Origin: a virus
IMG/VR virus record: IMGVR_UViG_3300020451_002162
Coordinates: 1 to 64,000 of that record
Direction: 5' to 3' (one strand)
DNA: 64,000 nucleotides
The notes under the pieces were generated by a model that saw only the letters and a program-made list of their open reading frames with translations, made no database searches and was not told the DNA's origin. Both the position numbers and the translations under genes were made by a program. This document shows positions 11,530 through 63,996 of the stretch, piece after piece. Numbering within the stretch: position 1 is the stretch's first letter; each line of letters starts with the position of its first letter.

Positions 11530-11709
11530 ATGGAAAAAGAAGATAAGAAATATATTAGAAAAACAAAAATAGACAAGAAAAAAAAAGACAAGTACCATAC
11601 TTCGGATGCTATGGATCATAAAGCAAAGGTTCAAAGCAAAAGAGAAAGGCAGGTAGAGATGGAAGAAGATGAATGGGAAAATTGGAATAGGTTTTATAAT
11701 CACAAATGA
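11530..11709 (+). CDS. Small highly charged protein, unknown function
   Basis: A 59-residue frame starting MEKEDKKYIRKTKIDKKKKD, strongly Lys/Glu-rich throughout and ending NWNRFYNHK. Its stop overlaps the next start (ATGA at 11706-11709). No family was recognised. The charge pattern suggests a nucleic-acid- or protein-binding peptide, but that is only a guess. Confidence 0.5.
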   Translation: MEKEDKKYIRKTKIDKKKKDKYHTSDAMDHKAKVQSKRERQVEMEEDEWENWNRFYNHK

Positions 11710-11948: not shown

Positions 11949-12201
11949 CTTTATAAAATCTTTATTTTTTCACGTATGGTCAGGCTTCCCGAAATGCAGT
12001 AAAGATCAAATTTTAAAAAGATGGAATACATGCTTGGTCTGCGAAGAATTTAATAAAGAATATTCTATTTGCAATATATGTGGATGTAATTTAAATAATA
12101 AAAAAGAGTTCTTCAATAAATTAGCTTGGGCTGATCAAGAATGCCCTGCTGGTAAATGGCCGAAAGAAATTAATAATGAAAATAAAAAAGCAAGAAAATA
12201 A
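11920..12201 (+). CDS. Small zinc-binding protein with CxxC and CxxCxC motifs
   Basis: A 93-residue protein with a hydrophobic start (MLMILIRISNFIKSLFFHVW), then NTCLVC (Cys38, Cys41) and CNICGC (Cys51, Cys54, Cys56), followed by AWADQECPAGKWP. The spacing fits a treble-clef or ribbon zinc site. The CP-x-GKW ending is a recurrent phage small-protein pattern. The start could also be at 11926. Function unknown. Confidence 0.65.
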   Translation: MLMILIRISNFIKSLFFHVWSGFPKCSKDQILKRWNTCLVCEEFNKEYSICNICGCNLNNKKEFFNKLAWADQECPAGKWPKEINNENKKARK

Positions 12202-12715
12202 AAGAAAAAACTACGTACACAACAACAAATATAACTTATTTGATAGCGCACAAGAACAAATGAAATGCGCATCAAATGGCTGTAATGTAATTATTATTAA
12301 TATTTGTAACAATCAGCATGTACATGTTAATGCATTTAATAAGAAAGTATATAGCAGATATCCATTGGTTCTAGCAAATAGAGAAGCTCTTGGTAGAACT
12401 AATTTAGGCAAGTGTCAGCCTGTACTCGTAGACAAAAACAAAGAATATAATCATAAATTATATGTAGCCAATTTGTATGCTTGCTCAGGTAAAAAAACAC
12501 CGAAAAATAGAACTATCAATTACTATGCTTTAGGACTAAGCCTACAGCAACTAGCTAGTTTTGTCAGATCAAACGTAAACACTACTGAGAATCCTATGTC
12601 TAGAGTCTTTATAGATAAAAAATGTGTTGCTTTTACTGGGTGTAATTGGTCTTTCGTGGATGATCTTTTAGACGATATTATGCCTGATATTGAGGTAGAG
12701 GTATATGATCAATAA
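12176..12715 (+). CDS. Hypothetical protein, weak macro-domain resemblance
   Basis: A 179-residue protein. The pattern CNVIIINICNNQHVHVNAF, ALGRTNLGKCQPVLV, YVANLYACSG and a late VAFTGCNWSFVDDLLDDIM has the rhythm of a macro (ADP-ribose-binding) domain with its terminal G-x-W-x-x-V. The key Asn and glycine loops are not clearly matched. If correct, it would bind or hydrolyse ADP-ribose-derived ligands, as in other phages with NAD or tRNA repair systems. It overlaps the next gene by 11 bases. Confidence 0.4.
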   Translation: MKIKKQENKRKNYVHNNKYNLFDSAQEQMKCASNGCNVIIINICNNQHVHVNAFNKKVYSRYPLVLANREALGRTNLGKCQPVLVDKNKEYNHKLYVANLYACSGKKTPKNRTINYYALGLSLQQLASFVRSNVNTTENPMSRVFIDKKCVAFTGCNWSFVDDLLDDIMPDIEVEVYDQ

Positions 12716-13595
12716 TAATATTGAATACCTCAAACAACATCCCTATGTTAGTGATGATGTTCATATAGAGATGAATGAAGATCCATTTCCTCATATAATT
12801 ATTAACAATTTATTTAAAGAGAATATATATGAGATGATATCCAGTAGTTTTATGGATATGATAGGAAGAACAAAATCATACAAAGATCTTCCAGGTGCTG
12901 TACATGATTATGCTGCTTATATATACGGTCTTAAAAAAGAAGATTGTAATTATGGTTATGATTTTTTTGTAGACGATATTTGGAAGAACTTTAATATGAT
13001 GACATTTGGAGTTATACTAAACAAATACATAGCTATGAGCGCACACTGGCATGAATCACCAGCTAAACCCGGTTTTGTTCATAACGACTACAATATATGT
13101 TCAGTTATTGATGATGGAGCCACAGACTATACCTTAACGGGTAATTGCTATTATTCTGATGACACAGCCACCAGAACCCCTCATGCTCAAAAAATAGCTA
13201 GAAGTGTAGCCATACTATATTATTTAAATAATGAATCAAATCATCAAACCGATGGCGGCACAAGTATATATACTGACTATAAGTTTTACAGTAAGATAAA
13301 GGACGTACCTCCAAGAAACAATTCTATATTTGTGTTTGCTGTTCAGCCTAATTCATATCATGGTTTTACGGGAGCGAACTTCAACAGGTCTGCGATAGTA
13401 CAATGGTTCCATTCTAGTCCTGCCTACATGGTTAGTAAATATAAAAAATTAATGAAAGAAAGACATATTCAATATGGATCTGGCTTTGAAAGATGGCAAC
13501 CAAAAGAACCTATGTGGGATGTTAGAAATGATCCCGAATATAAAAAATATTTTCCAAATCAAAACTTATCACTAGAACAATTATTAAACTCGTGA
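12705..13595 (+). CDS. 2-oxoglutarate/Fe(II)-dependent oxygenase
   Basis: A 296-residue protein with a double-stranded beta-helix iron site: HND (His126-x-Asp128), His219 in NSYHGF and the 2-oxoglutarate-binding Arg228 in NRSAIVQWFH. ILYYLNNES and DGGTSIYTD are typical strands of prolyl-hydroxylase-type oxygenases. It sits within glycosyltransferases, so sugar or virion-protein hydroxylation is plausible. The ATGA overlap with the next gene suggests coupling. Confidence 0.8.
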   Translation: MINNNIEYLKQHPYVSDDVHIEMNEDPFPHIIINNLFKENIYEMISSSFMDMIGRTKSYKDLPGAVHDYAAYIYGLKKEDCNYGYDFFVDDIWKNFNMMTFGVILNKYIAMSAHWHESPAKPGFVHNDYNICSVIDDGATDYTLTGNCYYSDDTATRTPHAQKIARSVAILYYLNNESNHQTDGGTSIYTDYKFYSKIKDVPPRNNSIFVFAVQPNSYHGFTGANFNRSAIVQWFHSSPAYMVSKYKKLMKERHIQYGSGFERWQPKEPMWDVRNDPEYKKYFPNQNLSLEQLLNS

Positions 13596-14452
13596 ACAAA
13601 CAAATACTATTTCTTGCTGATGAATTTGCTTCAGACTCAACAGGTGGTGCTGAATTGACAACCGAAGCAGTTATTAACGACAGCCCATCAGATATAGACA
13701 TAATTATGGTTCGAACATCAGAACTAAATATAGATATAATTAATAAGTTTAAAAATAATAAATGGATTATAGGTAATTTTTTTGGCCTCAATCCAGACCA
13801 TATGATACATTTGATGTCTAAGAAAATAGATTATTCTATTATTGAATACGATTATAAATATTGTGTTATGCGTATTCCTAAATTACACAAAAAACTACAC
13901 GGAGAATGTTGTGAAGAAAGCGTAAGAGGACAACTTATATCTTTATTTATGTCTCTTTCTCAAAGTCTGTGGTATATGTCTAGTGGACAAAAAAACTGGT
14001 ATGAGCAACAGTTTCCTGCTCTTAAAAAAGCCAATAGTTATGTACTAGGTTCCCTGTTAGAACAAAAAACTATTGATTATATTAATACTCTGGACTGTTC
14101 AAATAAAAACGATACATACATGATACAAGACCATCCTCATATATTGAAAGGAACAAAAGCGGGTATAGAATTAGCTGAAATTAAAAATTTAAAATATGAA
14201 TTGTTTGGGTCAATGAAATCAGAACCCCATCATGAGGTTTTACAAAAATTTGCCAAAGCTAAAGGATTAATATTTGTTCCTACAGAATTTGATACTTGTC
14301 CAAGAATCACAATAGAAGCAAAGCTACTAGGTTGCGATTTGCTACTTGGAGAAAATGTCCAACATAAAGATGAAGAGTGGTTTAGTAGAAATAATACAGA
14401 GATGATTAATCATATGAAAAATAGAACAAAATTTTTCTGGGAGACGATATGA
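13592..14452 (+). CDS. GT-B (GT4-like) glycosyltransferase
   Basis: A 286-residue protein. It starts ILFLADEFASDSTGGAELTTEAV, as in the N-terminal half of group 1 glycosyltransferases, and continues with HPHILKGTKAGIEL, YELFGSM and LIFVPTEFDTCPRITIEAKLLGC, the C-terminal donor-binding E-x7-E-type helix. It is shorter than standard GT4 enzymes (about 350-400 residues). It sits in a run of overlapping glycan genes. Confidence 0.7.
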   Translation: MNKQILFLADEFASDSTGGAELTTEAVINDSPSDIDIIMVRTSELNIDIINKFKNNKWIIGNFFGLNPDHMIHLMSKKIDYSIIEYDYKYCVMRIPKLHKKLHGECCEESVRGQLISLFMSLSQSLWYMSSGQKNWYEQQFPALKKANSYVLGSLLEQKTIDYINTLDCSNKNDTYMIQDHPHILKGTKAGIELAEIKNLKYELFGSMKSEPHHEVLQKFAKAKGLIFVPTEFDTCPRITIEAKLLGCDLLLGENVQHKDEEWFSRNNTEMINHMKNRTKFFWETI

Positions 14453-15135
14453 ACAAACGTAAAGAATACGAAGATTTCCTAAAAGACAAAAGAGTTTGTC
14501 TGGTAGGTCCAGCACCAACCGTAAAAGATATAGAAGGTAATTTATATAAAAACAAACAAGAACAAATTGATAAAATTGAATCTTATGATGTTATTGTTAG
14601 ACTTAATATAGCTTTACCGATGCCCCCTTCTTTAGCAGAGTATGTGGGAAGCAGAACAGAGATAATTTATAACTGTATGAGTCCAGACCCAGAATCTGGT
14701 GGTTATATTAATATAGATTTTCTCAAAGATAAGATAAGCTGGATCGTGGCCTCTTTGCCAGCCAAGCATCCTTTCACACAGGACATTGTAGGTTTTTATC
14801 AGAGAAACCAGAACACGATAAACTTCACAACCGTAGAACTTGACTACTTCAATGAATTAGAACAAAAAATGCAGACAAGACCAAACACTGGAGTTATAGC
14901 GATATTGGATATGTTAGCTTGCGATATTAAAGAAATTTTTATAACAGGTATGACATTTTTTAGAGGAGGTTATGTTAAAGAATACAGAGGATATAATGAG
15001 CAAGAAGTTTTGTCTAGAATGGCCGTTCATAAAAACCATAGACAAGAACCCCAGTTGGCATACATGAAAGAAATATTGTCATCGGACCCTAGAGTAAAAA
15101 TGGATAAATATTTACAGGACATCATCAATGAATAA
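14449..15135 (+). CDS. GT29 sialyltransferase-like protein
   Basis: A 228-residue protein with an L-sialylmotif-like VCLVGPAPTVKDIEG (16-30), VIVRLNIALP and an S-motif-like RPNTGVIAILDMLACDIKEI followed by FITGMTFF (144-171). These features match the GT29-like proteins found in bacteria and phages; GT29 uses CMP-activated sialic acids as donor. A CMP-sugar synthetase gene lies 2.4 kb downstream in the same run, which supports a CMP-sugar-dependent reaction. The true donor may be another ulosonic acid. Confidence 0.75.
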   Translation: MNKRKEYEDFLKDKRVCLVGPAPTVKDIEGNLYKNKQEQIDKIESYDVIVRLNIALPMPPSLAEYVGSRTEIIYNCMSPDPESGGYINIDFLKDKISWIVASLPAKHPFTQDIVGFYQRNQNTINFTTVELDYFNELEQKMQTRPNTGVIAILDMLACDIKEIFITGMTFFRGGYVKEYRGYNEQEVLSRMAVHKNHRQEPQLAYMKEILSSDPRVKMDKYLQDIINE

Positions 15136-16123
15136 AATAATATTATTAGGTTATACAAAAGAAGGCTCTCATACCAATTGGTATCCTTGGTATAGATTCA
15201 AAGAGACTTTTAATGAATTGGGATATGACTCACAATGGACGGAAATGCAAAACTTTAAAAGAGAACCTAATAAAAACTATACTTTTATTTGTTGGAACAT
15301 GCCCGATGTCCTTGACTTGATAGCAGCAGGACTTTTGCATAAAGATGATACAGTATTGCAAAAAGTTACTTCTATGACAAAGCGGGAGTCATCTGCAAGT
15401 TGGGGTGCAGATCCAGACGGATTTCACAAAACTTGGAATTGGCCTGCTTATCAAATGTGTTTAGATGTTTTAAATATGGGATACAATATCTATGCCTTTG
15501 GTTGTAGAACGTGTTATGAAGACTTTCCTAAAAAGAAAGAATTGATAGAACAACTAGGAGATCGCATGATTATGATACCTTGGACAAGCTGTATGTTTTC
15601 TTACCAAGAATTACAAGAACAAAAACCCATTACTGATAATTTTGAATTAGACTGCTGTTTTGTCGGATCTGTCTGGGGTAGGGAGGGACGAGGAAACTTA
15701 GAATCAGTCAGAGACTATCTTTCTCCGGTTTTTAATAGCACAGATAAAGGTTACGCTGCGGGTTCTGGTACTTCTACAGGCCCGATCTCAAATGCTAAAC
15801 ATGTAGAAGTAATTAAAAAATCTAAATTATGTCCTATCATCAATGCTCCTTCATGGAGATCAGAAAAAGGAGTACAAGACAGATTCTGGACAGTATTTGC
15901 TGCTGGAAGATTTGGTGTGTCAGACACAGAGGGTGTGTACGAATTTTTTGGCAAGAACGAGGTAATTTGCGAAACAGACCCCGCAGAATATGTTGAAAAA
16001 AGTATTTATTATATGAAGAATACAGATAAACAAATTCCGTATATAGAAAAAATACAACAAAGAATTAAAAAAGAATATAACTGGAATAATACATTCAAAA
16101 ATATTTTTGAAAAGGTTTCTTGA
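15128..16123 (+). CDS. Glycosyltransferase group 1-like (CgeB-type)
   Basis: A 331-residue protein. It begins IILLGYTKEGSHTNWYPWYRFKETF, has CCFVGSVWGREGRGN in the middle and QDRFWTVFAAGRFGVSDTEGVYEFF, ending with NTDKQIPYIEKIQQRIKKEYNW. The last block is the typical CgeB/glycos_transf_1_2 C-terminus, where a receptor domain binds the nucleotide sugar. It overlaps the GT29-like gene by 8 bases. Specificity unknown. Confidence 0.7.
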   Translation: MNKIILLGYTKEGSHTNWYPWYRFKETFNELGYDSQWTEMQNFKREPNKNYTFICWNMPDVLDLIAAGLLHKDDTVLQKVTSMTKRESSASWGADPDGFHKTWNWPAYQMCLDVLNMGYNIYAFGCRTCYEDFPKKKELIEQLGDRMIMIPWTSCMFSYQELQEQKPITDNFELDCCFVGSVWGREGRGNLESVRDYLSPVFNSTDKGYAAGSGTSTGPISNAKHVEVIKKSKLCPIINAPSWRSEKGVQDRFWTVFAAGRFGVSDTEGVYEFFGKNEVICETDPAEYVEKSIYYMKNTDKQIPYIEKIQQRIKKEYNWNNTFKNIFEKVS

Positions 16124-16126
16124 ATT

Positions 16127-16870
16127 ATGAATTTATTACACTGTGCTTTACCTCCGCAATACCCAACAGCAAGTATCCACCCAAACACTATAGCAAATCT
16201 TAATAAGTGGAAAAATTTAAATTCTACACTAGAGTTAAAACAAAAAGTATATAATTATGAGGAATGCTGCGATCTAATAGCAAAACATTTTGATAAAGAA
16301 TTGCTAGATTTTTTTAAAATACAACCCTATGGTCATTTTAAGTCTGACTTATGGAGATTGTGTGCTTTGTATATTGATGGAGGAGTTTATGCAGACATAG
16401 ACCAAGAATTACTTGTTGCATTTAAGGATTTTTTTGATGAGACAGTTGATTTTTGCGGCGTAACTAATATGGAAAAATATAATTTATCTAACGGATTTAT
16501 ATATGCTAAAAAGGAAAGTCCTATTATTCTAAAGAATATAGAACTAACCTATGCTAAATATAGACAAGCACTATCGTCTAATCAAAATCTTATATTAGAT
16601 GTTAAATTTATCGGAGGCTGCTATATCATGGGAGATGTAATTGCCAATATGACCAATTCAAAAGAGATGCCTATAGGACATACAAAGATAGGAAATTTGA
16701 ATTGTAAGTTTTTATATGAAACAGGAGATATATCTCTTAGAGATACTAATAAACAAGCTTTTTGGAATAGTTTTGCTGTTTTTGATAAAGACACAAGAAT
16801 AATGAATTCTAGATATGCATCTTACTATATAGATAGACATCAAAATTCTTTATTTATACCCTATGAGTGA
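16127..16870 (+). CDS. GT32-family glycosyltransferase
   Basis: A 247-residue protein with the GT32 (OCH1/capsular mannosyltransferase) core FKSDLWRLCALYIDGGVYADID: SDLWR at 73-77 and DxD at Asp90/Asp92 binding metal and nucleotide sugar. FIGGCYIMGDV follows. GT32 enzymes transfer mannose, galactose or glucose onto surface polysaccharides. Three bases separate it from the upstream stop. Confidence 0.85.
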   Translation: MNLLHCALPPQYPTASIHPNTIANLNKWKNLNSTLELKQKVYNYEECCDLIAKHFDKELLDFFKIQPYGHFKSDLWRLCALYIDGGVYADIDQELLVAFKDFFDETVDFCGVTNMEKYNLSNGFIYAKKESPIILKNIELTYAKYRQALSSNQNLILDVKFIGGCYIMGDVIANMTNSKEMPIGHTKIGNLNCKFLYETGDISLRDTNKQAFWNSFAVFDKDTRIMNSRYASYYIDRHQNSLFIPYE

Positions 16871-16879
16871 GATAGAAAC

Positions 16880-17563
16880 ATGATTAAAAAAGATTATTTA
16901 CAATATTTAAAATTCCCTCCAGGATTAGAAGGCGATTGGTCTGATCGTTCAGAAACTTTCTCTAAAGCTTTAGCTATGTTTTCTGACACTTCTTCTAACA
17001 ACACTATTGTTGAATTAGGAACCACGAGAAGCTATGTAGGAGGAGGATTTGAGGGATGCCTTTCTCCAAATGACAAATATTGGAAACCCGATAATCCTGA
17101 AATGTGGGATTGGCAAGCAGGATGTTTTACAATTATAGCTGCTGAATTTTGTCAAAAACTAAAAGATCGTAATATAGAATTTCATACAGTAGATCTTAGT
17201 GCTGAACATATTCGTAGAGCTAAATTAATGACAGAACATATATATAAAAAAATTCAATATCATGTTACTAGTAGCTTAGATTTTTTACAAAACTTTAAAA
17301 ATAAAATAGATTTATTATATGTAGATACTGGGGATTGTGAACCAAGAACAATGAAATTACAATTTTTAGAAGCACAAATAGTTGTAAATAAATCTCTTGT
17401 TTCTGATGGAGGCTTAATATTAATAGACGATGTTTTTCGACCTAAAAAATATAGAGCGCCATCATATCATAATAAATCAGAATTATCTCTACCTTTCTAT
17501 TTACAAAATGGTTTTGAGCTGGTTTACTCGAATTATCAAACTTTACTTAGAAAAAAAAGTTAA
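16880..17563 (+). CDS. Class I methyltransferase-like protein
   Basis: A 227-residue Rossmann protein. NNTIVELGTTRSYVGGG is a loose motif I, HTVDLSAEHIRRAK carries the acidic residue expected to bind the ribose of SAM, and DLLYVDTGD with GGLILIDDVF resemble CmcI/FkbM-type methyltransferases. The insertion WKPDNPEMWDWQ after motif I is unusual. It probably modifies a sugar in the same pathway. Confidence 0.65.
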   Translation: MIKKDYLQYLKFPPGLEGDWSDRSETFSKALAMFSDTSSNNTIVELGTTRSYVGGGFEGCLSPNDKYWKPDNPEMWDWQAGCFTIIAAEFCQKLKDRNIEFHTVDLSAEHIRRAKLMTEHIYKKIQYHVTSSLDFLQNFKNKIDLLYVDTGDCEPRTMKLQFLEAQIVVNKSLVSDGGLILIDDVFRPKKYRAPSYHNKSELSLPFYLQNGFELVYSNYQTLLRKKS

Positions 17564-17569
17564 GGCAAT

Positions 17570-18226
17570 ATGAATATTTTCATACCAATAAAACATAACT
17601 CCCAAAGAGTTTCTTCTAAAAACTTTAGACTATTTAGAGGTAAGTCTCTATGGAGACATACCATAGACAAAGTTTCTACTAAATATAAAGTACATATTGA
17701 TACCGATTCTGAAGAGATTATTACAGAATGCAAAGGATTGGATAATGTAATAGCATATAAAAGAGAGCGCAACTTATTGGGAGATCATGTATCTGTTGTG
17801 TCCTTAATACAAAATTTTAAAAATCGCTATCAAATCACTGGAGATATTTGCCAAATCCATGTCACCTCCCCCTTCCTAAAAATAGATCACATACAAACTG
17901 CTCAAAAAAAATTACAAGAAGGATATGATTCAGTTTTTGGTGTTGATATTTTACAACAAAGACTATGGAGACAAGAGTCGTACGGATACTGTCCAATTAA
18001 TCACAACCCTATGAAATTAGAACAAACTCAAGACTTACCAAAATATTATTATGAAAATTCTTATTTATACGCTTTTAAATCAGAAGTATTAGATCTTGGT
18101 AATCGCATAGGTAATAATCCATATCTCTTAAAGATAGACTTTCCATACAATTTAGACATAGACACAGAACAAGATTGGTCTATAATAAACTATATATCAA
18201 AACTAGAAAAAGAGGACTTACAATGA
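17570..18226 (+). CDS. CMP-sugar synthetase (acylneuraminate cytidylyltransferase-like)
   Basis: A 218-residue NeuA/KdsB-fold enzyme. It begins IFIPIKHNSQRVSSKNFRLFRGKSL, equivalent to the R-x-G-S-K-x(I)-x-x-K CTP-binding start with the Arg/Gly partly replaced. It continues with QIHVTSPFLKIDHIQTA, YDSVFGVD, ENSYLYAF and a terminal IDFPYNLDIDTEQDW with the metal-binding acids. The family activates sialic acid, KDO or legionaminic acid with CTP. It is coupled by ATGA overlap to the aldolase gene, forming a likely two-step unit. Confidence 0.85.
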   Translation: MNIFIPIKHNSQRVSSKNFRLFRGKSLWRHTIDKVSTKYKVHIDTDSEEIITECKGLDNVIAYKRERNLLGDHVSVVSLIQNFKNRYQITGDICQIHVTSPFLKIDHIQTAQKKLQEGYDSVFGVDILQQRLWRQESYGYCPINHNPMKLEQTQDLPKYYYENSYLYAFKSEVLDLGNRIGNNPYLLKIDFPYNLDIDTEQDWSIINYISKLEKEDLQ

Positions 18227-18951
18227 TATTATCTTGGCAACAAATACCTTCAGCTACTATATCTGAAATTATGTGTAAAGGTTTTGATGGTGTTGTGCTT
18301 GATACAGAGCATGGCTCTTTTAATCCTGAAACTATTAATAATTGTATTCAAGTAATTAAATTAGCCGGAAAAAAGGCTTTTGTTAGATTGACAGAAGTTT
18401 CGCCTACTGATATCAGGTCATGTCTTGATTCTGGTTGTGATGGTCTTATCTTTTCTACCGTAGAAACTGTTGAACAATGCGAAGCAATTAAAAATTGTTG
18501 CTACTTCCCTCCAAAAGGAAAGAGGGGTCTTGGACTATCAAGAGAAAATATGTGGGGAGAAAAAAGTCAATTAGTAAGTAGTGGGCCAATTATTGTTCCT
18601 CAGATAGAATCTAAGTTAGGTATTGAAAATATAGAAAAAATTAAAAGCTATGGATTTGACTTTCATCTGATTGGTCCATATGATTTATCTTTAAGTTTAG
18701 AAATACCTGGTGATTTTAAACACGAAAAATTTCAACAAGCTATTAAGACTATGAGAGATAGTATTCCTAATGATAAAATGGCCATACATATTCCTAAGGA
18801 TCTTGACGCTTGGAATTTGTGGCAGTCCGAAATGGAAGAATGGTTGAACTATTCAGATTATGGAATGCTATGCATAGGTATGGATACTATAGCTATCTTC
18901 CAGTATAATAAAGTAAATTTATCTAAAGTCAAAAAGAACGCTGGTCGATAG
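18223..18951 (+). CDS. HpcH/HpaI-family aldolase
   Basis: A 242-residue TIM-barrel class II aldolase. It has GFDGVVLDTEHGSF (Asp27, Glu29, His30), FVRLTEVSPTDIRSCLDSGCDGLIF, KGKRGLGLSRE, PQIESKLGIENIEKI (metal-binding Glu) and HLIGPYDLSLSL (metal-binding Asp). The family condenses pyruvate with an aldehyde to 2-keto-3-deoxy acids. The ATG at 18223 is chosen over an upstream in-frame ATG because AGAGGA precedes it and it overlaps the CMP-sugar synthetase stop (ATGA). The context suggests synthesis or editing of a keto-deoxy sugar acid. Confidence 0.85.
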   Translation: MILSWQQIPSATISEIMCKGFDGVVLDTEHGSFNPETINNCIQVIKLAGKKAFVRLTEVSPTDIRSCLDSGCDGLIFSTVETVEQCEAIKNCCYFPPKGKRGLGLSRENMWGEKSQLVSSGPIIVPQIESKLGIENIEKIKSYGFDFHLIGPYDLSLSLEIPGDFKHEKFQQAIKTMRDSIPNDKMAIHIPKDLDAWNLWQSEMEEWLNYSDYGMLCIGMDTIAIFQYNKVNLSKVKKNAGR

Positions 18952-47145: not shown

Positions 47146-49344
47146 ATGTCGGCATTAAATGAACTTCAAAATTATACTTTTGTGAGCAAGTACGCCCGTT
47201 GGATTGAATCTGAAAACAGAAGAGAAACTTGGAAAGAAGCAGTAGATCGTGTTAGAAATATGATGCATACATATTATGCTGATAAAAACATGTCAGAAGA
47301 TATCGATTGGGCATACGATATCATGTTTAAAAAGAAAGTTTTAGGAAGTCAAAGAGCTTTGCAATTTGGTGGAGAGCCGATCTTAAAAAGACATGCTAAA
47401 ATTTATAACTGCACTAGTTCTTATTGTGACAGATTAAGATTCTTTCAAGAATGTTTCTGGTTGCTATTGTGTGGTAGTGGTACAGGATTTAGTGTACAAA
47501 AACATCACGTAGCTAAATTGCCTAATTTGTCTCATAATAAAAAAGACAAAAGGAAAGGTGTAAAATATAAAATAGAAGATAGTATTGAAGGATGGTCGGA
47601 TGCTTTGGGTGTTCTACTAAGTTCCTATTTTACTAAGGCTGCTGAAGATAAGTTTAAACAATACAAAGATCAGTATATTGTTTTTGACTATAGCAATATT
47701 AGAGAAAAGGGATCGCAACTATCTTCTGGTGTGGGCAAGGCGCCCGGTTTTGAGCCCTTGCAAAACGGTTTGGAAAAAATTAGAGAAGTATTGGAGACAT
47801 GCATTGAAAACAAACAGAAAAAACTCAGACCAATTGATGCTTATGATATTATTATGCACTCAAGCGATGCTGTATTATCTGGTGGTGTTCGCAGAAGTGC
47901 GTCGTTAGCATTATTTAGTGCAGACGATGAAGAGATGGCTAAAGCTAAAACCGGTAATTGGTATGTAGATAATCCTCAAAGAGCCAGAAGCAATAATTCT
48001 GCATTACTCCTAAAAGACGATACATCTTATGAGCAGTTTGCTTTATTGATGGAATCTGTTAAAGAGTTTGGTGAACCTGGATTCATTTGGAGTGATTCCA
48101 CAGAAATGACATTTAATCCTTGTGTTGAAGTAGGTATGTGGCCTGTTGATGAAAAAACAGGAAAGTCTGGTTGGCAAGGATGTAATCTCTCTACAATCAA
48201 TTGCTCTTCTGTTGTCGATGAAGAAGATTTCTATGAAAGATGTAAAGCTGCTGCTATCATTGGTAGTTTACAAGCTGGTTTTACTGGTTTGGATTATTTA
48301 GGAGAGACTAGTAAGGCAATATTTGATAGAGAGGCTTTGCTTGGAGTTTCTTTAACTGGTATCATGGAGAAGCATGAATTAGTACTTACAGAGAAGGTCT
48401 TAAAGAAAGGCGCAAAAATTGCTGTAGACACCAACAAAGAAATCGCCAAAAAGATTTCTATTAATCAGGCAGCCAGAGTAACTTGCTTAAAACCAGAAGG
48501 TACTTCAAGTTCCATGCTAGGTACATCATCTGGCATCCATCCACATCATGCTAAAAGATATATTAGACATGTTCAAGCAAACATCTTAGAGCCACCTTAC
48601 CAATATTTTAAAAGCTATAATCCTCAAGCGTGTGAAAAGTCTTCTTGGTCTGCCAATGATACAGACGAAGTTGTTAAATTCCCTATTGAGGTTCCCGATG
48701 GATCTAAACTTAAAAACCAACTACCCGCTATAGAAATGCTTGGCGTAGTAAAAGATGCTCAAAAAAACTGGGTTCATTCTGGGAAAAACAGATCATTATG
48801 TACTCAAGATTTTCTTAGTCATAATGTTAGCAATACTGTAACTGTACAGCCAGATGAATGGGAAAGTGTCACAAAATTTATATATAATAATAGAAAGTTT
48901 TTTGCCGGGATTAGTCTAATCCCACAGAGCGGAGACAAAGACTATCCTCAGGCTCCTTTTACTACAGTATATACTAGTAGAGAAATTGTCAAAGAATATG
49001 GAGATGCTGGGTTGTGGTGTTCAGGTTTGATTGAGTTGGGACTAAATGCTTTTGATAATAATTTATGGGCAGCATGTGATTATATTACATTAAACCAATT
49101 AACAGACAAAGATGCTGAAGATAAAAAATTATTTGCAATCAAAATGCATAGATTCGCTAAAAAATATTTTGAAGGAGACTTTAAGAGACTAACATATTGT
49201 ATGAAAGATGTATATAATTGGAAAATTTATACTGATTTATACGAGAGTTTTAGTAAAGTGGATTATACACAACTATTAGAAACAGAGGATAATACCGTAG
49301 GAATAGAGGAAATCAGTTGTGCAGGTGGTGCATGTCTTATTTGA
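47146..49344 (+). CDS. nrdJ: Class II (adenosylcobalamin-dependent) ribonucleotide reductase
   Basis: A 732-residue protein. The first active-site Cys sits in KIYNCTSSYC, the radical-site region in FNPCVEVGMWP, then WQGCNLSTINCSSV (Asn/Cys/Glu loop) and KPEGTSSSMLGTSSGIHPHH. The C-terminal redox pair is CAGGAC. These fit monomeric B12-dependent NTP reductases as found in phages and Lactobacillus. It reduces ribonucleotides to deoxyribonucleotides without oxygen. It depends on host cobalamin. An AGGAGCTAGG ribosome site precedes the ATG. Confidence 0.93.
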   Translation: MSALNELQNYTFVSKYARWIESENRRETWKEAVDRVRNMMHTYYADKNMSEDIDWAYDIMFKKKVLGSQRALQFGGEPILKRHAKIYNCTSSYCDRLRFFQECFWLLLCGSGTGFSVQKHHVAKLPNLSHNKKDKRKGVKYKIEDSIEGWSDALGVLLSSYFTKAAEDKFKQYKDQYIVFDYSNIREKGSQLSSGVGKAPGFEPLQNGLEKIREVLETCIENKQKKLRPIDAYDIIMHSSDAVLSGGVRRSASLALFSADDEEMAKAKTGNWYVDNPQRARSNNSALLLKDDTSYEQFALLMESVKEFGEPGFIWSDSTEMTFNPCVEVGMWPVDEKTGKSGWQGCNLSTINCSSVVDEEDFYERCKAAAIIGSLQAGFTGLDYLGETSKAIFDREALLGVSLTGIMEKHELVLTEKVLKKGAKIAVDTNKEIAKKISINQAARVTCLKPEGTSSSMLGTSSGIHPHHAKRYIRHVQANILEPPYQYFKSYNPQACEKSSWSANDTDEVVKFPIEVPDGSKLKNQLPAIEMLGVVKDAQKNWVHSGKNRSLCTQDFLSHNVSNTVTVQPDEWESVTKFIYNNRKFFAGISLIPQSGDKDYPQAPFTTVYTSREIVKEYGDAGLWCSGLIELGLNAFDNNLWAACDYITLNQLTDKDAEDKKLFAIKMHRFAKKYFEGDFKRLTYCMKDVYNWKIYTDLYESFSKVDYTQLLETEDNTVGIEEISCAGGACLI

Positions 49345-55248: not shown

Positions 55249-56712
55249 ATGATACTATCCAACCCATCCGCTGAGAGAGCTGTACTATCGGCTATTATTA
55301 AATACGGCTCAGATATATTTTATGATGTATCTGATATATTAACAGATAAATGCTTTACTATAGACAGTAATTCCAATATATTTCAGTGTATAAAAAAATC
55401 TATAGAAAAAAATAATCAAGATCAAATAGATTTAGCTTCTATCTATAGTAGCGCACAAGAACTTGGTATGTCTAAAGTGTTTTCTACCAAAGAAGAAAAT
55501 CAGCACTTAAAAGCAGTCATAGATTTCCCGGTAGAAAAAGAAAATGCTAGAAAATTTGCTACACAAATTAGAAAATTAGAGATAGCAAGAGAACTAAGAG
55601 AAAAACTACAGTCTGCTCAGAACGACCTACTTGATGTTACAGGCACGGAAAATGTATCTTCTATCTTGTCTATAGCTGAAGATAGCGTTCTTAATTTTTC
55701 GGAAAGTTTAACAGATACAGATAATCATCCGTCTCCTATGAGTGACGACATAGATGAATATATTCAACACCTTATAGATAACAAAACTGAGCAAGTAGGT
55801 ATACCAACAGGATTTCCTGTATATGATTCTTCTATTGGCGGAGGTTTAAGAAAAGGCACTGTTAATGTTATAGCGGCCCGACCAAAAACTGGTAAAACTT
55901 TGTTGTCTGATAACATGGGCTTTTTTATTGCTAGTAAAATGGGTGTTCCTGTTTTAAATTTAGATACAGAAATGAACAAAGAAGATCATATCAACCGCAT
56001 ATTAGCTATGATTACAGAAGTATCTATTAATAAGATAGAAACCGGTAGGTTCGTAGATTCAGCTAGCCATAAAACAAAAATAGAAAAAGGTATACAAAAA
56101 ATCAAAGACTCAAAACTATATTACAAATCTATTGCTGGAAAAAGTTTTGATGAGCAGATATCTTTGATGAGAAGATGGATAATGACAGAGGTAGGAATGA
56201 ACAGTGATGGCACAGCTAAAGATTGTGTTATATTTTACGATTATTTAAAATTGATGGATACTCAGGGTATGTCTCAAGATATGAAAGAATATCAGGTTCT
56301 TGGATTTATGATGACAGCCTTACATAACTTTGCTGTAAAGTATAAGATACCAATTGTTTCATTTATACAATTAAACCGAGATGGCATCACCAAGGAAACC
56401 ACCGATGCCGCAAGTGGTTCTGACAGAATCGTATGGTTGTGTAGTAATTTTAGTATTTTCAAAAGAAAAACAGATGAAGAAATAGCAGAAGACGGACCAG
56501 ATAATGGTAATAGAAAATTAGTGCCTATTATCAGTAGACATGGTGGAGGATTAGATGACAACGACTATATTAATTGTCATATGAAAGGCTGGTGTGCAAA
56601 AATTACAGAAGGCAAAACTCGACAAGAAGTAGTAAATAATACAGGAGACGATAAGGATGGCTTTGTTATTGGAGAAGAAGGTGAAGAACCAGAAACATTC
56701 ACGTTTAATTAG
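55249..56712 (+). CDS. dnaB: DnaB-like replicative helicase
   Basis: A 487-residue hexameric helicase. An N-terminal helical domain (PSAERAVLSAIIKYG, DIFYDVSDIL), then Walker A ARPKTGKTLLSDN (211-217 core), VPVLNLDTEMNKEDHINRI (H1a/H2), Walker B VIFYDYLKLM and VSFIQLNRDG with motif H4. It unwinds the phage DNA fork. No intein is seen. Its end overlaps the primase gene by 56 bases. Confidence 0.92.
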   Translation: MILSNPSAERAVLSAIIKYGSDIFYDVSDILTDKCFTIDSNSNIFQCIKKSIEKNNQDQIDLASIYSSAQELGMSKVFSTKEENQHLKAVIDFPVEKENARKFATQIRKLEIARELREKLQSAQNDLLDVTGTENVSSILSIAEDSVLNFSESLTDTDNHPSPMSDDIDEYIQHLIDNKTEQVGIPTGFPVYDSSIGGGLRKGTVNVIAARPKTGKTLLSDNMGFFIASKMGVPVLNLDTEMNKEDHINRILAMITEVSINKIETGRFVDSASHKTKIEKGIQKIKDSKLYYKSIAGKSFDEQISLMRRWIMTEVGMNSDGTAKDCVIFYDYLKLMDTQGMSQDMKEYQVLGFMMTALHNFAVKYKIPIVSFIQLNRDGITKETTDAASGSDRIVWLCSNFSIFKRKTDEEIAEDGPDNGNRKLVPIISRHGGGLDDNDYINCHMKGWCAKITEGKTRQEVVNNTGDDKDGFVIGEEGEEPETFTFN

Positions 56713-57826
56713 TCAAGACAAATTAAAAGTAGTTTGTGACGGATTATGTGATAATATTGAAGAATTGCTTGAACGATTTGATATTGAATATTCTTGCAAT
56801 GGTAAACTATTAAGCATGTCCTGTCCTATACATGGTGGTGATAATACTACAGCTCTTAATATATATCCGGAAGGAGATACATATAGAGGAAACTGGAAGT
56901 GTAGAACGCACGGATGTGAAGAGGTATTTAAAGGTTCAATTATAGGATTTATTAGAGGTATACTATCTAGACATAAACATAACTGGGAAAAATCAGGAGA
57001 CAAAACGGTATCTTTTCAGGAAACTTTAAATTTTTGTTTAGCTTTTATAAATCAAGATCTTGATAAAATATCTATTGATCATACACATAGAGACAAAAGT
57101 AAATTTGTAGCAGCAATAAAAAATACTAGTAATAATTCTGAAAAAGTAGAAAATGGCGTAGCCAGAAATGTTGTTAGGAAACATCTAGATTTAAAACACC
57201 CGTATTATATAGATCGAGGATTCTCAGCAGAAATTTTAGATAAATATGATGTTGGATATTGTTCTTCTAAAGGTAAAGAAATGTCTGGTCGGATTGTAGT
57301 GCCAGTATATGATCATGATTATCATCATATGATAGGCTGTACAGGTAGAAGCATATTCGACGTTTGTAACAAATGTAAGCACTATCATGAGGCAGGTACT
57401 GCATGTCCCGATAAGAATGTGTTGTTTTTACATAGTAAATGGAGACATAGTAAAGGTCTGAAAACACAGAATTATCTATACAACATCTGGTTTGCTAAAA
57501 AGTTTATTAAGACAACATATACTGCTATAGTGGTAGAAAGTCCAGGTAATGTATGGAGACTTGAGGAAGCTGGTATACACAATAGTGTTGCAATATTTGG
57601 CTCTTCTATGAGCGATAGACAAAAAATGATACTTGATGCTTCAGGAGCTATGAATATAATAACAATTATGGATAATGACGAAGCGGGACAAAAAGCGGCA
57701 GATAAAATAAAAACAAAGTGTTGTAAAACCTATAATGTTAAAAATCTAAAAATTAAAACCGCTGACATTGCAGAAATGTCTGTTCAACAAATTAACGAAG
57801 AAATTAAACCTTTACTTAGTATGTGA
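56657..57826 (+). CDS. DNA primase with zinc-binding and Toprim domains
   Basis: A 389-residue DnaG-type primase. Zinc module: CPIHGGDNTTALNIY ... GNWKCRTHGC (Cys56, His59, Cys82, His85 or Cys87). Toprim: AIVVESPGNVWRLEEAGI with Glu, and IIT(I)MDNDEAGQKAADKI with the DxD pair. The start ATG at 56657 lies in the helicase end and has an AAGG directly before it. It makes RNA primers and likely binds the DnaB-like helicase. Confidence 0.9.
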   Translation: MALLLEKKVKNQKHSRLISQDKLKVVCDGLCDNIEELLERFDIEYSCNGKLLSMSCPIHGGDNTTALNIYPEGDTYRGNWKCRTHGCEEVFKGSIIGFIRGILSRHKHNWEKSGDKTVSFQETLNFCLAFINQDLDKISIDHTHRDKSKFVAAIKNTSNNSEKVENGVARNVVRKHLDLKHPYYIDRGFSAEILDKYDVGYCSSKGKEMSGRIVVPVYDHDYHHMIGCTGRSIFDVCNKCKHYHEAGTACPDKNVLFLHSKWRHSKGLKTQNYLYNIWFAKKFIKTTYTAIVVESPGNVWRLEEAGIHNSVAIFGSSMSDRQKMILDASGAMNIITIMDNDEAGQKAADKIKTKCCKTYNVKNLKIKTADIAEMSVQQINEEIKPLLSM

Positions 57827-58591: not shown

Positions 58592-59635
58592 ATGATTATA
58601 ACTTACTTTCGTTCTTCTAGCTACAACACGCACAATATGTGCCCTCAGCAATATTTTTTTGAATATGTCCTTGGGTGGAGAGGTAGTTCTGGGCTGAAAG
58701 CTGACAAAGGAACTATTGTACACAAAGTATTAGAAATACTAGCTGTTATAAAACAAGGTTTACAAAATAATAAAAAAGAAATTATAGATGACATACTAGG
58801 AAATATTAGCACTACAGAATATGATTTAGAAGAAATTATTAAACAAGTTTATGATCATTACTCTTCACATAATAGTCATCACAACTGGAAACCGAGAGAT
58901 AGTAAAGACTGTAGAGATTGGGTATATAAAGCATTAGAATTTAATGATGGTATGTTTGATCCTAGAAAAAGGAATATTTTAGAACCAGAACAACATTTTG
59001 ATTTTGAAATTAATAAAAGCTGGGCAGATTATGACTATGAAACATCCGAAGGTAGACTATCTGGCAAACTAGCACTAAAAGGAACGATAGATTTAATCAC
59101 ATTAGTTAATGACGAAACCATAGAAATTATAGATTGGAAAACTGGTAAAAGGCTAGATTGGGCTACAGGTAAAGAGAAAACCCAAGAAAAACTTGAAGTA
59201 GACCCTCAGTTAAGAATATATTACTATGCTATCAAAAATTTGTATCCAAATATTAAATATGTTATTTTCTCTATATATTTTATAAATGATGGAGGACCTT
59301 TCTCTGTTTGTTTTGGTGATGAAGACATGGAAGCAACCGAACATTTGTTAAGACAAAAATTTGAGCATATAAAACATACTCGCAAGCCAAATCTAAAAAA
59401 GAGCTGGATGTGTACCAAGTTATGTCATTTTGGCAAAACAACATTCGAGGATACGCATATTGAGCCAATGGATGAATATAGAGATAATCAAAGAACAACG
59501 CCCGGATATACTATGACGAAGTGTGAACAAGTTAAACACGATTTAGACTTGTACGGCATAGACGCAACTACTAATATATATAAACACCCTAACCATAAAT
59601 TTGGAAAATATCAAGCTCCCGGATCAACAGAATGA
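58592..59635 (+). CDS. RecB/Cas4-type PD-(D/E)XK exonuclease
   Basis: A 347-residue nuclease. The N-terminal SSYNTHNMCPQQYFFEYVLGWRG and KGTIVHKVLE are the superfamily signature. Catalytic core LKGTIDLITL and IEIIDWKTGK (Asp, Asp, Lys), then QLRIYYYAIKNLYP (QxxxY motif). Cys in SWMCTKLCHFGK and earlier CPQQ might ligate an iron-sulphur cluster as in Cas4/AddB, but the spacing is not certain. Likely acts in recombination-dependent replication. Overlaps the polymerase gene by ATGA. Confidence 0.88.
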   Translation: MIITYFRSSSYNTHNMCPQQYFFEYVLGWRGSSGLKADKGTIVHKVLEILAVIKQGLQNNKKEIIDDILGNISTTEYDLEEIIKQVYDHYSSHNSHHNWKPRDSKDCRDWVYKALEFNDGMFDPRKRNILEPEQHFDFEINKSWADYDYETSEGRLSGKLALKGTIDLITLVNDETIEIIDWKTGKRLDWATGKEKTQEKLEVDPQLRIYYYAIKNLYPNIKYVIFSIYFINDGGPFSVCFGDEDMEATEHLLRQKFEHIKHTRKPNLKKSWMCTKLCHFGKTTFEDTHIEPMDEYRDNQRTTPGYTMTKCEQVKHDLDLYGIDATTNIYKHPNHKFGKYQAPGSTE

Positions 59636-61512
59636 ATCAGTATATACCTTTGCATGTGCATTCGCACTATTCTTTATTGGACGGATTATCTAAGCCCGCA
59701 CAGATAGCTGACAGGTGTTTAGAAATAGGCGTTAAATCTTGCGCTATCACAGATCATGGTACAATATCTGGCTGTGTACAGTTTTATGAAACCATGAAGA
59801 AAAAAAATATTAAACCAATCTTGGGCTGTGAAATCTATGTTTGTTCTCAAGATTCTCAAATCAAAAAACCAGAAAATGCTAAGCTGAGTCATTTCCTGTT
59901 ACTTGCTAAAAATAAAGCAGGCTGGGATTCTCTTATACAACTAGTTTCTTACAGCAATGTTGAATCTAGATACTATCATAAGCCTAGAGTTTCTCTAGAT
60001 GACTTACAGCAATTTATAGATGGAAACACCATAGGTTTTTGTGGACATCTTGGTTCTACGTTAGCTAATATTATACAAAAAAATAAAGACAATTCTGTAA
60101 TTAAAGAGGGTTGTGAATTTGTAGCTAGAATGCAAAGTGTATTTGGTAAAGATAATTTTTTCTTGGAAGCTCAACTCATGGATAGAGAGAATAATCCAGA
60201 GCAACAAGAAATGACAGACATGGTTAGAAGTATAGCAGAACAAAGCAATTGTAAAATGTTGTGTACGCCAGATGCACATTATTGTAGACAAGAGGACTCT
60301 ATAGATCAAAGAATATTATTATGCAACAATCTTAAAACCACATTGATTGATATTAATAAAAAGTGTTTAAACAACGAAAAAGTTCCAATGGGGGCTTTTT
60401 TCACTTCTGATAATTACCATATATTATCACAAGAAGAAATACAAGACTTACACACCCCAGAAGAAATTGAGACTACAAATCTTATTGACAGTATGTGCGA
60501 AGAATACGATATTCTTAGTGCTCCAATATTACCTCCGTATGATTGTCCAAATAATGCTGATCCAGCTGAATATTTACGCGAATTATGTAGACAAGGATGG
60601 AAGAAAAAAATAGCTAATGATATTCCTAAAGAACAGCATCAAGCATATGTAGATAGAATTAAAAGAGAACTTGATGTTTTACAAGGCGCTGGTCTATCTA
60701 GTTATTTTCTAACTGTTGTCGATATAGTAGATTATGTTAGAAATAAAAATTGGTTACCTGGTCCCGGAAGAGGTTCTGCTGCAGGATGTTTGGTTTCATA
60801 TCTAATTGGTATCACCTCTATAGATCCGATTAAATACAATCTTATTTTTGAAAGATTTTATAATTCTGGTAGAAATACCAAAGACAGAGTATCTATGCCA
60901 GATATTGATGTCGATGTACCAATTAATAAAAGAGAAGATGTCATATCTTATATTAAAAATAAATACGGTAATGATAAAGTTTCTCAGATGATCACATACA
61001 ATACCATGAAAGGAAGAGGAGCCTTAAAAGAAGTTTTAAGAGTTTATGGTAATATAAATTTTGAAGAAATGAATAGAATCACCAAAAACATCCCTGATGA
61101 AGCCAAAATAGCAGATGAACTACAAGAAATGAAAGAAATTACTGGAGAATCTTCTATTATTAGATGGGCATTAGAAAATAATGTTGACAGACTCAAAGAA
61201 TGGTGTTATATTGATGAGAGTGGACAATTAGCGGGTCCATTATCTAAAAGATTTGAGCAAGCTATGCGTTTGGAAGGAACTAAGTCTAATCAATCAAAAC
61301 ATGCAGCCGGTGTAGTTATTAGTAGCAGTCCTTTGCGAGATATTTGTCCTATGGTTTTAGACACAAAAAACAAGCAACAAATAGCCGGAATGGAAATGCA
61401 AGACTTAGAAGCTCTTGGCATGATTAAGTTTGATATTTTAGGTATTGCTATGTTAGATAAAATCATGTCTATATCAGAACATTTATTTAAAGGAGACACC
61501 GATGATAGCTAA
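59632..61512 (+). CDS. dnaE: DNA polymerase III alpha, N-terminal half (PHP and palm)
   Basis: A 626-residue protein. The PHP domain starts LHVHSHYSLLDGLSKPAQIA and has CAITDHGTISG. The palm has GPGRGSAAGCLVSYLIG (about 380), SMPDIDVDVP (about 423, two catalytic Asp) and a third acidic site MIKFDILGI (about 600). In a normal DnaE the fingers follow at once; here the frame ends at SISEHLFKGDTDDS and the fingers are in a separate gene at 62383. All three catalytic Asp are thus on this half. ATGA overlap with the nuclease gene before it. Confidence 0.92.
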   Translation: MNQYIPLHVHSHYSLLDGLSKPAQIADRCLEIGVKSCAITDHGTISGCVQFYETMKKKNIKPILGCEIYVCSQDSQIKKPENAKLSHFLLLAKNKAGWDSLIQLVSYSNVESRYYHKPRVSLDDLQQFIDGNTIGFCGHLGSTLANIIQKNKDNSVIKEGCEFVARMQSVFGKDNFFLEAQLMDRENNPEQQEMTDMVRSIAEQSNCKMLCTPDAHYCRQEDSIDQRILLCNNLKTTLIDINKKCLNNEKVPMGAFFTSDNYHILSQEEIQDLHTPEEIETTNLIDSMCEEYDILSAPILPPYDCPNNADPAEYLRELCRQGWKKKIANDIPKEQHQAYVDRIKRELDVLQGAGLSSYFLTVVDIVDYVRNKNWLPGPGRGSAAGCLVSYLIGITSIDPIKYNLIFERFYNSGRNTKDRVSMPDIDVDVPINKREDVISYIKNKYGNDKVSQMITYNTMKGRGALKEVLRVYGNINFEEMNRITKNIPDEAKIADELQEMKEITGESSIIRWALENNVDRLKEWCYIDESGQLAGPLSKRFEQAMRLEGTKSNQSKHAAGVVISSSPLRDICPMVLDTKNKQQIAGMEMQDLEALGMIKFDILGIAMLDKIMSISEHLFKGDTDDS

Positions 61513-61684
61513 AAAATTTGCAGAATTATCAGTAAACTCAAAATTTGTACATAATAATATTGAGTATCAAAAATTGCAACCAATCAAAATATCTTGTTGT
61601 AAATCCGTTAATGCTTGTGTGGTATCTCAACCTGCTACAAAAGTATTTATTAACCCTAACCAGGAAGTTAAAGTAAATGGCTAA
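61502..61684 (+). CDS. Small SCC-motif protein between polymerase halves
   Basis: A 60-residue protein (AKKFAELSVNSKFVHNNIEYQKLQPIKISCCKSVNACVVSQPATKVFINPNQEVKV). It resembles widespread small phage and bacterial proteins with an F-x-x-L/N-x-x-F ... Y-x-K-L ... SCC-x-x-x-NA ... FI-x-P pattern, of unknown function. An AGGAGACACCG ribosome site precedes the ATG, which overlaps the end of the polymerase N-half. Its frame links the polymerase to the exonuclease with 8-11 base overlaps. Confidence 0.6.
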   Translation: MIAKKFAELSVNSKFVHNNIEYQKLQPIKISCCKSVNACVVSQPATKVFINPNQEVKVNG

Positions 61685-62375
61685 TTTTCATAAAATTTGT
61701 GTATTTGATTTAGAAACAGATGGAACAGATCCAAACAGCTGCAGCCCTGTTCAAATTGCGGCTGTTATGGTCGATCCGTTCAAATTAGAAATTATACCTG
61801 ATTCTAAATTTAATATTAATTTAAAACCAGAAAAATTAGAAGAGAATCAAAATTATGCCTATGAAGACAGTGACGTTTTAGATTTTCATGCAAAAGTTAA
61901 GGGAGTCACTAGCGCTCAAGTTTTAGACGAGTGGCAAAATTATCATTCTCAAAAACAAGGTTGGACTTCTTTCGTGAGTTATTTAGATATGTATCATCTG
62001 GGTAATAGAAAAAAGAAATCTCAATTCACAGCTCCTATTGCGGCTGGTTATAATATTTTTAGGTTTGATTTGAAAATTATTGACAGACTAAGTAAAAAAT
62101 ATGGAAACACAAACGCAGAAAAAGGTAGTGCTTTGTTTTTCCCTAGAGATACTGTAGATTTAATTAATACGGTATTTTGTTGGTTTGAAGGAAATGACGA
62201 ATTGAAAAACTATACCTTGGACCATCTAAGAGATTATTTTGGCATGGTTAAGGATGGTGCTCATGACGCATTAAAGGATGTAGAAGATACTGCAGAATTA
62301 GCTATCCGTTTTCTAAGACTTCACAGAAAGCTTTCAGCTAAAATTAGATTTAAGGACTCTTTTGTAGCGAATTAG
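61677..62375 (+). CDS. DnaQ-like DEDDh 3'-5' exonuclease
   Basis: A 232-residue exonuclease. ExoI VFDLETDGTDP (Asp/Glu), ExoII GYNIFRFDLKIIDRL with Asp, and ExoIII GAHDALKDVEDTAELA (His and Asp) match the epsilon proofreading subunit of Pol III. Placed between the two halves of the alpha subunit and overlapping the small SCC protein, it is a good candidate for the phage polymerase's proofreader. A stop and 7 bases separate it from the next gene. Confidence 0.9.
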   Translation: MANFHKICVFDLETDGTDPNSCSPVQIAAVMVDPFKLEIIPDSKFNINLKPEKLEENQNYAYEDSDVLDFHAKVKGVTSAQVLDEWQNYHSQKQGWTSFVSYLDMYHLGNRKKKSQFTAPIAAGYNIFRFDLKIIDRLSKKYGNTNAEKGSALFFPRDTVDLINTVFCWFEGNDELKNYTLDHLRDYFGMVKDGAHDALKDVEDTAELAIRFLRLHRKLSAKIRFKDSFVAN

Positions 62376-62382
62376 TAAATAA

Positions 62383-63996
62383 ATGAAAAATAAATATTTG
62401 ACCTTTTCTTGTGGATGTAAGTTTCCATTGGGAGAAAATAATTCTGTAACATTTGATACAGATGTCTCTTCTTTAAATATGGAATGTTCTAAAACATGGG
62501 ACTTGATATCTGAAGGTAATACTAAAGGATGTTTTCAGTTAGAATCAAGACTTGGACAATCTATGTCCAAAAAATTAAAACCGTCTAACATAGAACAATT
62601 ATCTGGTTTAATTAGTATCCTAAGACCGGGCTGCTTAGAAGCCTATAGAGACGGCAAGAGTGTGTCTAATCATTATATAGACAAAAAAAATAATTTAGAG
62701 GGTATTGATTATTTCCATCCTAGCTTAGAAGATATACTACAACCTACGTACGGAGAAATGATATATCAAGAACAAGCTATGAGAATTACACAAAAAATAG
62801 CTGGATTTGACCTAAAAGAAGCAGATATGCTTAGAAAAGCTATTGGTAAGAAAAAGCCTGAAGAGATGGCAAAAGTTAAAAAAAGATTTATAACAGGGTG
62901 TAAGAAGGAAAATACTGTTTCTAAAGAAGAAGCTGAAGAAATATTTGGCTGGATTGAAAAAAGTCAAAGATATTCTTTTAATAAAAGTCATGCTATATCT
63001 TATGCAATGAACGCCTATCTGTCTGCTTATGCTAAAGCTCATTTCCCTAAAATGTTTTTTGCTTCATATTTAAAATTTGCTAAAGATAAGATTGACCCTC
63101 AACAAGAGATTAAAGAACTCATCAGAAATGCTAGTGAAATGGATGTTTCCGTAAGCACCCCTGACCTAAGAAACCTAAACAGGTTGTTTGTAGTCGGCTC
63201 TGAATATATATATTTTGGACTAACTGATATTAAAGGGGTTGGAAATTCTGTATTTGACAAAATTATACAAATCACTCAAGAAGGTTTTGATGTAAGTAAA
63301 ACTTCTTGGTGCTATATCCTATTCGGTTTGTTATTAAAAATCAATTCCACCGCAGTTAAAGCTTTGATCAGTTCTGGGGCCTTAGATTATCTTAAAATAA
63401 ATAGAACCAAAATGCTATTTGAGTACGATATAGCTTCTTCTCTAACAAAAAAAGAAGCAGCTTTCTGCGAAACACAATCTATGGAAATAGACAAGTTGAA
63501 AACTTTATTAGAGAATTTATTAGATGCTCCAAGAGTAAATAAAAATAGGAAAATCAAAATAAATGATGCAATTAGTATGCTAAAAAAACCTCCGTACTCT
63601 CTACAAGACCGTATAGAATGGTTATCAGACAGCGAGAGTTCTTTACTGGGTGCTGCTATATCTTGTTGTAAATTAGATTCTTACGATATCAGTATGACCA
63701 ATACGGATTGTAAGACATTTAAAAAGAGTCATAATAAAAATAATATTATTATTGCTGGAGAAATAAGCGGCGTAAATGTAGTTAAGACTAAAAAGGGTAA
63801 AAATCCTGGTCAAGATATGGCTTTTGTAACCATAGAAGACAGTACTGGCATATTAGACTCTGTGATAATGTTTCCAGAAACTTGGTCGCAATACAAACAC
63901 CATATATTTGATAGTAATGTACTTGTTTTTGTAGGAAATAAAACTAAGCAGTCAGACGGGTTTATAGTCGAAAAATGTTTCGACGCACACACTTGA
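62383..63996 (+). CDS. dnaE: DNA polymerase III alpha, C-terminal half (fingers and OB-fold)
   Basis: A 537-residue protein. It starts KYLTFSCGCKFPLGENNSVTF, then TWDLISEGNTKGCFQLESRLGQSMSKKLKP, the fingers block that normally follows the palm in DnaE. Further on: ISILRPGCLEAYRDG, YGEMIYQEQAMRITQKIAGFDLKEADMLRKAIGKKKPE, and NKSHAISYAMNAY. The C-terminus has an OB-fold (NIIIAGEISGVNVVKTKKGKN, MAFVTIEDSTGILDSVIMFP). The CxCxFP near the start is extra and may bind metal. With the N-half it makes one complete alpha subunit. Confidence 0.92.
   Translation: MKNKYLTFSCGCKFPLGENNSVTFDTDVSSLNMECSKTWDLISEGNTKGCFQLESRLGQSMSKKLKPSNIEQLSGLISILRPGCLEAYRDGKSVSNHYIDKKNNLEGIDYFHPSLEDILQPTYGEMIYQEQAMRITQKIAGFDLKEADMLRKAIGKKKPEEMAKVKKRFITGCKKENTVSKEEAEEIFGWIEKSQRYSFNKSHAISYAMNAYLSAYAKAHFPKMFFASYLKFAKDKIDPQQEIKELIRNASEMDVSVSTPDLRNLNRLFVVGSEYIYFGLTDIKGVGNSVFDKIIQITQEGFDVSKTSWCYILFGLLLKINSTAVKALISSGALDYLKINRTKMLFEYDIASSLTKKEAAFCETQSMEIDKLKTLLENLLDAPRVNKNRKIKINDAISMLKKPPYSLQDRIEWLSDSESSLLGAAISCCKLDSYDISMTNTDCKTFKKSHNKNNIIIAGEISGVNVVKTKKGKNPGQDMAFVTIEDSTGILDSVIMFPETWSQYKHHIFDSNVLVFVGNKTKQSDGFIVEKCFDAHT

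Follow-up and report, generated by a model that had tools for sequence, protein, structure and literature searches.

The DnaE of cyanobacteria (Ssp, Npu) is encoded by two genes, cut at FNKSH of the fingers, and the two products are rejoined by a split intein. A sequence-only reading of the DNA studied here took this to be the only kind of natural DnaE split, which has to be corrected, as phage splits without a recognised intein are found at several sites. DnaE is cut at DIDVD in Bacillus phage Jayan, and between PHP and palm in vB_BpsS-140 and Anakin. In Bacillus phage KLEB27-3 the adjacent DnaE pieces are cut after FQLESRLG, with an HNH homing endonuclease in the gap, and in Staphylococcus phage PT1-1 such an endonuclease lies in a cut at DIDVD. 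For group 2.2 jumbo phages, Iyer et al. 2021 (PMC7824862) described a Pol III alpha that is both minimal and split; it accompanies PolB, and an accessory role was proposed for it. The case with the same palm/fingers loop cut as ours is Rossellomorea phage phiT1, where the two parts are the adjacent genes gp20 and gp18 (PV767480). For an architecture of N-half, exonuclease and C-half, no paper was found in open-access text.

We then present the split DnaE of an uncultured phage, on a stretch of 64,000 nucleotides (hereafter the window) whose source is a virus record of 91,565 bases. The features discussed below are the following.

55249..57826, + strand: DnaB-like helicase (55249-56712) and Toprim primase (56657-57826), in the same operon
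58592..59635, + strand: PDDEXK nuclease gene directly upstream of the polymerase genes, its stop overlapping the start of the N-half
59632..61512, + strand: N-half of DnaE, 626 aa, with PHP, palm, thumb and all three catalytic Asp
61502..61684, + strand: S, a 60-aa Cys-Cys protein, overlapping N and X
61677..62375, + strand: X, a 232-aa DEDDh 3'-5' exonuclease
62383..63996, + strand: C-half of DnaE, 537 aa, with N-terminal Cys hairpin, fingers, HhH and OB fold
62383..62490, + strand: residues 1-36 of the C-half, an extension at its N-terminus that is specific to the lineage, with a CGCxF hairpin plus C35

The four genes N, S, X and C thus lie on the same strand at 59632-63996, overlapping or abutting, and the 870 bases between the N stop and the C start are filled by S and X; the positions are exactly those of the sequence-only reading, which had described two half ORFs with two short genes between them. 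The gene cluster around the split polymerase is a replication operon, with genes for a RecA-like protein, the DnaB-like helicase, the primase, a dNMP kinase and the PDDEXK nuclease upstream, and an SSB gene directly 3' of the C-half gene.

The N-half, which ends in ...KFDILGIAMLDKIMSISEHLFKGDTDDS, matches PHP (7.6e-39) and DNA_pol3_alpha (2e-74) in Pfam, and by alignment its D424, D426 and D601 are the catalytic D401, D403 and D555 of E. coli DnaE. The PHP metal site, whose motif is defined as HHDHEH[C/H]DH (PMC12926913), is complete, consisting of H8, H10, D17, H42, E67, H87, H139, D214 and H216. The three catalytic Asp and the last seven of these ligands are present in 101 of 101 N-halves of the family, while the first two histidines are seemingly absent in some members because of interrupted or truncated starts only. 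All nine ligands being kept, the PHP could have remained active as a metal site in addition to X, as judged from its residues.

The C-half, with the sequence element ...TWDLISEGNTKGCFQLESR, matches DNA_pol3_finger (1.9e-45) and HHH_6 (1.6e-8), and weakly an OB domain. Alignment with E. coli DnaE puts the cut at about residues 577-586, past the third Asp D555, in the loop between the last palm helix and the fingers proper, which confirms the earlier view that the cut follows the third Asp and that the C-half starts at the fingers. The N-half stops at about residue 580; the canonical sequence resumes just before about residue 596, and is preceded in the C-half by an added segment of about 30 residues (CGCxF...C) that is not in contiguous DnaE. 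Among 80 distinct members, C10, G11, C12, F14 and C35 are conserved in 77-79. The structure model of the C-half (pLDDT 87.9) begins with short strands at residues 5-7 and 13-16, with CGC in between, and resembles M. tuberculosis Pol III alpha from the fingers to the OB (TMq 0.70). A metal site in this hairpin would be a guess, as it shows only three ligands where four are usual. On the whole, PHP, a pol-beta-type palm with three Asp, fingers, HhH and OB are all found, distributed over two proteins instead of the single continuous polypeptide that is usual for family C, though not universal in phages. The N-half and the C-half together are one family-C DNA polymerase (DnaE).

The two genes in the gap differ in what can be said of them. 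X matches RNase_T of Pfam (1.9e-11) and the PHROG 'DNA polymerase exonuclease subunit' (2.7e-20), its best curated matches being weak, and has the D-E, D and H-x4-D motifs of a DEDDh exonuclease (D11, E13, D131, H196, D201), kept in 87-88 of 88 X proteins; a suspected interruption within X of relative L018 is merely a non-ATG start. X is probably the proofreading subunit of the split polymerase, similar to epsilon; it could instead serve recombination. S has no match in Pfam or among solved structures. It is fast-evolving, with F15, C32 and C33 invariant (F...SCCK.xNA), and it is ruled out as a universal subunit, being absent or replaced by other small genes in distant members, as in the most distant, L073 and L144. 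In L144 a Cpn10 (GroES-like) gene occupies the gap in place of S (8835-9092).

Overall, the search of viral contigs confirms at least 582 of 599 pattern matches as relatives, of which the best 80 were kept. At least 131 distinct loci cover N, X and C, all in the order N-X-C, and the phages carrying the split are uncultured, mostly aquatic, and form a large group. In the tree the split family is one clade on a 100/100 branch with a long stem, and the closest contiguous DnaE proteins are merely about 33-35% identical. The gap from N to C has a median of 870 nt and ranges from about 0.8 to 4.5 kb over the 131 loci. The two halves are in one frame in only 31 of 131, close to the one third expected by chance, so that there is no read-through product. 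Compared pair by pair, the distances of N, X and C are correlated (r 0.84-0.90).

Some other genes of these genomes bear on the host. DUF1559 and DUF1501 are typical of Planctomycetota, and a prepilin-like DUF1559 gene is located at 10590-11477 of the window and also in five of 27 other relatives checked; L033 has DUF1559 at 10978-11961 and L072 has DUF1501 at 7687-10042. A Planctomycetota host is thereby hinted at. The genome collection gave three MAG contigs, each assigned to another bacterial group; these are probably stray contigs of phages, so that we make no host call. Besides, a 732-aa protein of the window (47146-49344) weakly matches domains of B12-dependent (class II) ribonucleotide reductase, and L075 contains a 2666-aa ORF (10873-18873, - strand), probably a large structural or tail protein.

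Our preferred reading, to which we give high confidence, is a replicase core that is permanently encoded as two proteins, forms a non-covalent heterodimer and has a proofreading subunit of its own. Profile search of 20 records of 92-244 kb finds one palm and one fingers match in each, and finds neither PolB nor PolA, both of which were matched in control genomes. The split DnaE thus seems to be the sole replicase of the lineage, on records that are fragments or of unassessed completeness, in which another polymerase could be missed; since completeness is not established, the absence of a second polymerase is suggestive only. If the split polymerase were instead an accessory enzyme, for repair or for one strand, with host Pol III as the main replicase, the lack of a bacterial-type sliding clamp (PF02767, a family likewise matched in control genomes) in the same 20 records would fit, as some host parts may be borrowed. 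We consider this improbable, because PolA and PolB are missing in records of up to 244 kb, the genes adjoin those of the DnaB-like helicase, primase and SSB, and both the PHP and a dedicated exonuclease are retained.

It is very unlikely that the heterodimer is in fact one covalent chain, made by a cryptic split intein, by an intron holding S and X, or by translational bypass of the gap. The domain search shows no intein in 20 N-halves or 18 C-halves across the family, so that none of the intein fragments which mark a split-intein DnaE are seen at the ends of the halves, and the earlier statement that the junction has no intein motifs is upheld over 38 proteins. The same search does detect intein-splicing or Hint domains at other DnaE sites in three relatives, which serve as positive controls:

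L060, 838-3919: intein match at the GRGS site of the N-half
L072, 10929-13812: intein match in the C-half near FNKSH
L147, 8621-11011: intein match in the C-half fingers, upstream of the FNKSH site

What speaks for covalent joining is that inteins do occur elsewhere in DnaE and that relatives have another candidate bypass, located at the 5' end of their N-half gene (see below). Against it, Rfam gives no intron match, each half has its own stop and start, the start region of the C-half is conserved as protein with its CGCxF...C segment, and the gap holds two conserved genes, with unrelated cargo in L033 and L072. The extra gap DNA of these two comprises DUF1559, DUF1501, FkbM-type and thyX genes; in L033 the cargo lies between X and C (9740-13232) and consists of FkbM methyltransferase, DUF1559 and ThyX (thymidylate synthase). 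On the other side, our own reading gains nothing from a one-chain model of both halves (window 60514-63732 through the stops, with the untranslated gap as linker), which had 17 rows, reached a mean pLDDT of 45.6 and pTM 0.36, and was not used. With no intein and no Rfam intron, covalent joining is thus unlikely, and we infer that the halves assemble non-covalently, which is the remaining reading.

A broken gene or an assembly error, that is, a pseudogene or chimera in a phage using a host or other polymerase, has next to no probability: the intact DnaE genes known from phages, at about 34% identity, are indeed mostly contiguous, but all 131 independent loci are split and none contiguous, every active-site residue is kept, and dN/dS of 0.02-0.06 for N, X and C (against L005: N 0.056, X 0.037, C 0.035, with S under weaker constraint at 0.15) shows strong purifying selection, which bears out the original judgement of a genuine split and disposes of the contiguous homologues and assembly error once named as able to refute it.

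In a part of the family the N-half gene is interrupted a second time. This is seen in at least 29 distinct relatives, of which none is close to the window: after M...YxPLHxHS the N-half runs into a stop and the remainder of a 6-11 nt insert, before it continues with HYSLLDG.... The interruption falls at about codon 14, is absent from the window, and is followed by a frame that varies among the 29. Scanning by pattern brought up this gene start in 18 stretches, some on new contigs. The interrupted N-half starts include the following, with 25 other loci.

L098, 6996-7042
L114, 6982-7027
L169, 5984-6027
L144, 6999-7045

In 28 of the 29 the insert pairs with the following coding sequence, forming a hairpin around or beside the stop codon, with a lower stem of 8 bp (6 in L144) and an upper stem of 5-8 bp. 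Its mean energy is -19.5 kcal/mol, compared with -9.8 without the insert and -12.8 for shuffled inserts, and three pair positions of the hairpin show changes on both sides (covariation). Among the interrupted relatives, most of the variation in the leader codons and in codons 11-15 is synonymous. A plain +1 or -1 frameshift is ruled out because the insert has 6, 8, 9, 10 or 11 nt, and reinitiation at the downstream TTG is disfavoured, as codons 11-14 ahead of the TTG vary almost only synonymously. In the bypass of T4 gene 60 the stop directly follows the take-off codon (PMC5009743, PMC11194080); such a bypass also implies a structured gap and decoding that resumes downstream in another frame, and the sequence and covariation of the relatives fit it. 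Less in keeping with it, the insert ends in a Ser codon that matches the take-off Ser in only 15 of 29. The stop and hairpin of the relatives may be regarded as a candidate programmed translational bypass, on the pattern of their nucleotides. The trait is patchy on the N-half tree, with at least seven changes needed. Whether the gene is in pieces at two levels, split in trans and held together by the Cys hairpin, possibly with S and X, and in a subset also bridged by a bypass, we judge to be an even question. If true, there would be a short programmed bypass in an essential replication gene, where ribosomes must skip the insert to make the PHP. As a candidate element for ribosomal bypass, it is short and available in about 30 natural variants.

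Returning to the heterodimeric core, the proposed mechanism is as follows. A single operon would make both halves together with X and S from overlapping genes; PHP, palm, thumb and the three catalytic Asp would come from the N-half, and fingers, HhH and OB from the C-half. The halves would fold and come together, without a covalent bond, as one active polymerase, with X acting as an epsilon-like proofreader. The Cys hairpin of the C-half would probably stand in for the covalent linker that was lost, either by capping the fold or by serving for docking. The association of the halves, proofreading of this enzyme by X, and the roles of the Cys hairpin and S are what we infer from the locus and its conservation. 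The system suggests that a replicase of bacterial type need not be spliced and can function as a machine assembled from two parts. It amounts to a natural experiment on whether the family-C catalytic core can bear being cut permanently next to the active site, and is a two-part Pol III ready-made for structural and engineering work, while the proofreader gene between the halves may tie gene order to polymerase-exonuclease assembly.

Finally, the lineage is compared with the known systems. With the E. coli Pol III core (alpha plus epsilon) it shares the catalytic triad and the pairing of a polymerase with a DEDDh proofreader, but E. coli has one polymerase chain with epsilon as a separate gene, whereas here the polymerase is in two chains; in PolC a DnaQ domain is embedded in the polymerase chain (PMC12926913). 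Compared with the cyanobacteria, the cut of the window lies about 160 residues upstream of the FNKSH site and has no intein, while the intein domain of L072 is located at that very site. The jumbo-phage split Pol III is alike in having a family-C subunit as two phage proteins presumed to reassemble (PMC7824862), yet its genes are distant and encode only the catalytic core, without PHP and with PolB (PMC7824862). In our lineage the genes are adjacent, the enzyme extends from PHP to OB, and PolB is absent in 20 of 20 records, so it is not of the jumbo-phage type. The gaps of KLEB27-3 and PT1-1 hold an endonuclease, whereas that of the window holds an exonuclease of proofreading type. By analogy with these and with T4 genes 39/60, reported as a case of homing-endonuclease insertion (PMC5009743), it is plausible that the split arose by such an insertion, later replaced. 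Phage phiT1, with the same junction, falls outside the split clade; its gap has an unrelated 49-aa ORF and no exonuclease, its C-half lacks the Cys hairpin of the window lineage, and its N-half has no relatives in viral contigs. Split phage DnaE is thus already known, including the phiT1 junction and the jumbo phages, and what is new here is therefore a variant fixed in a whole lineage.
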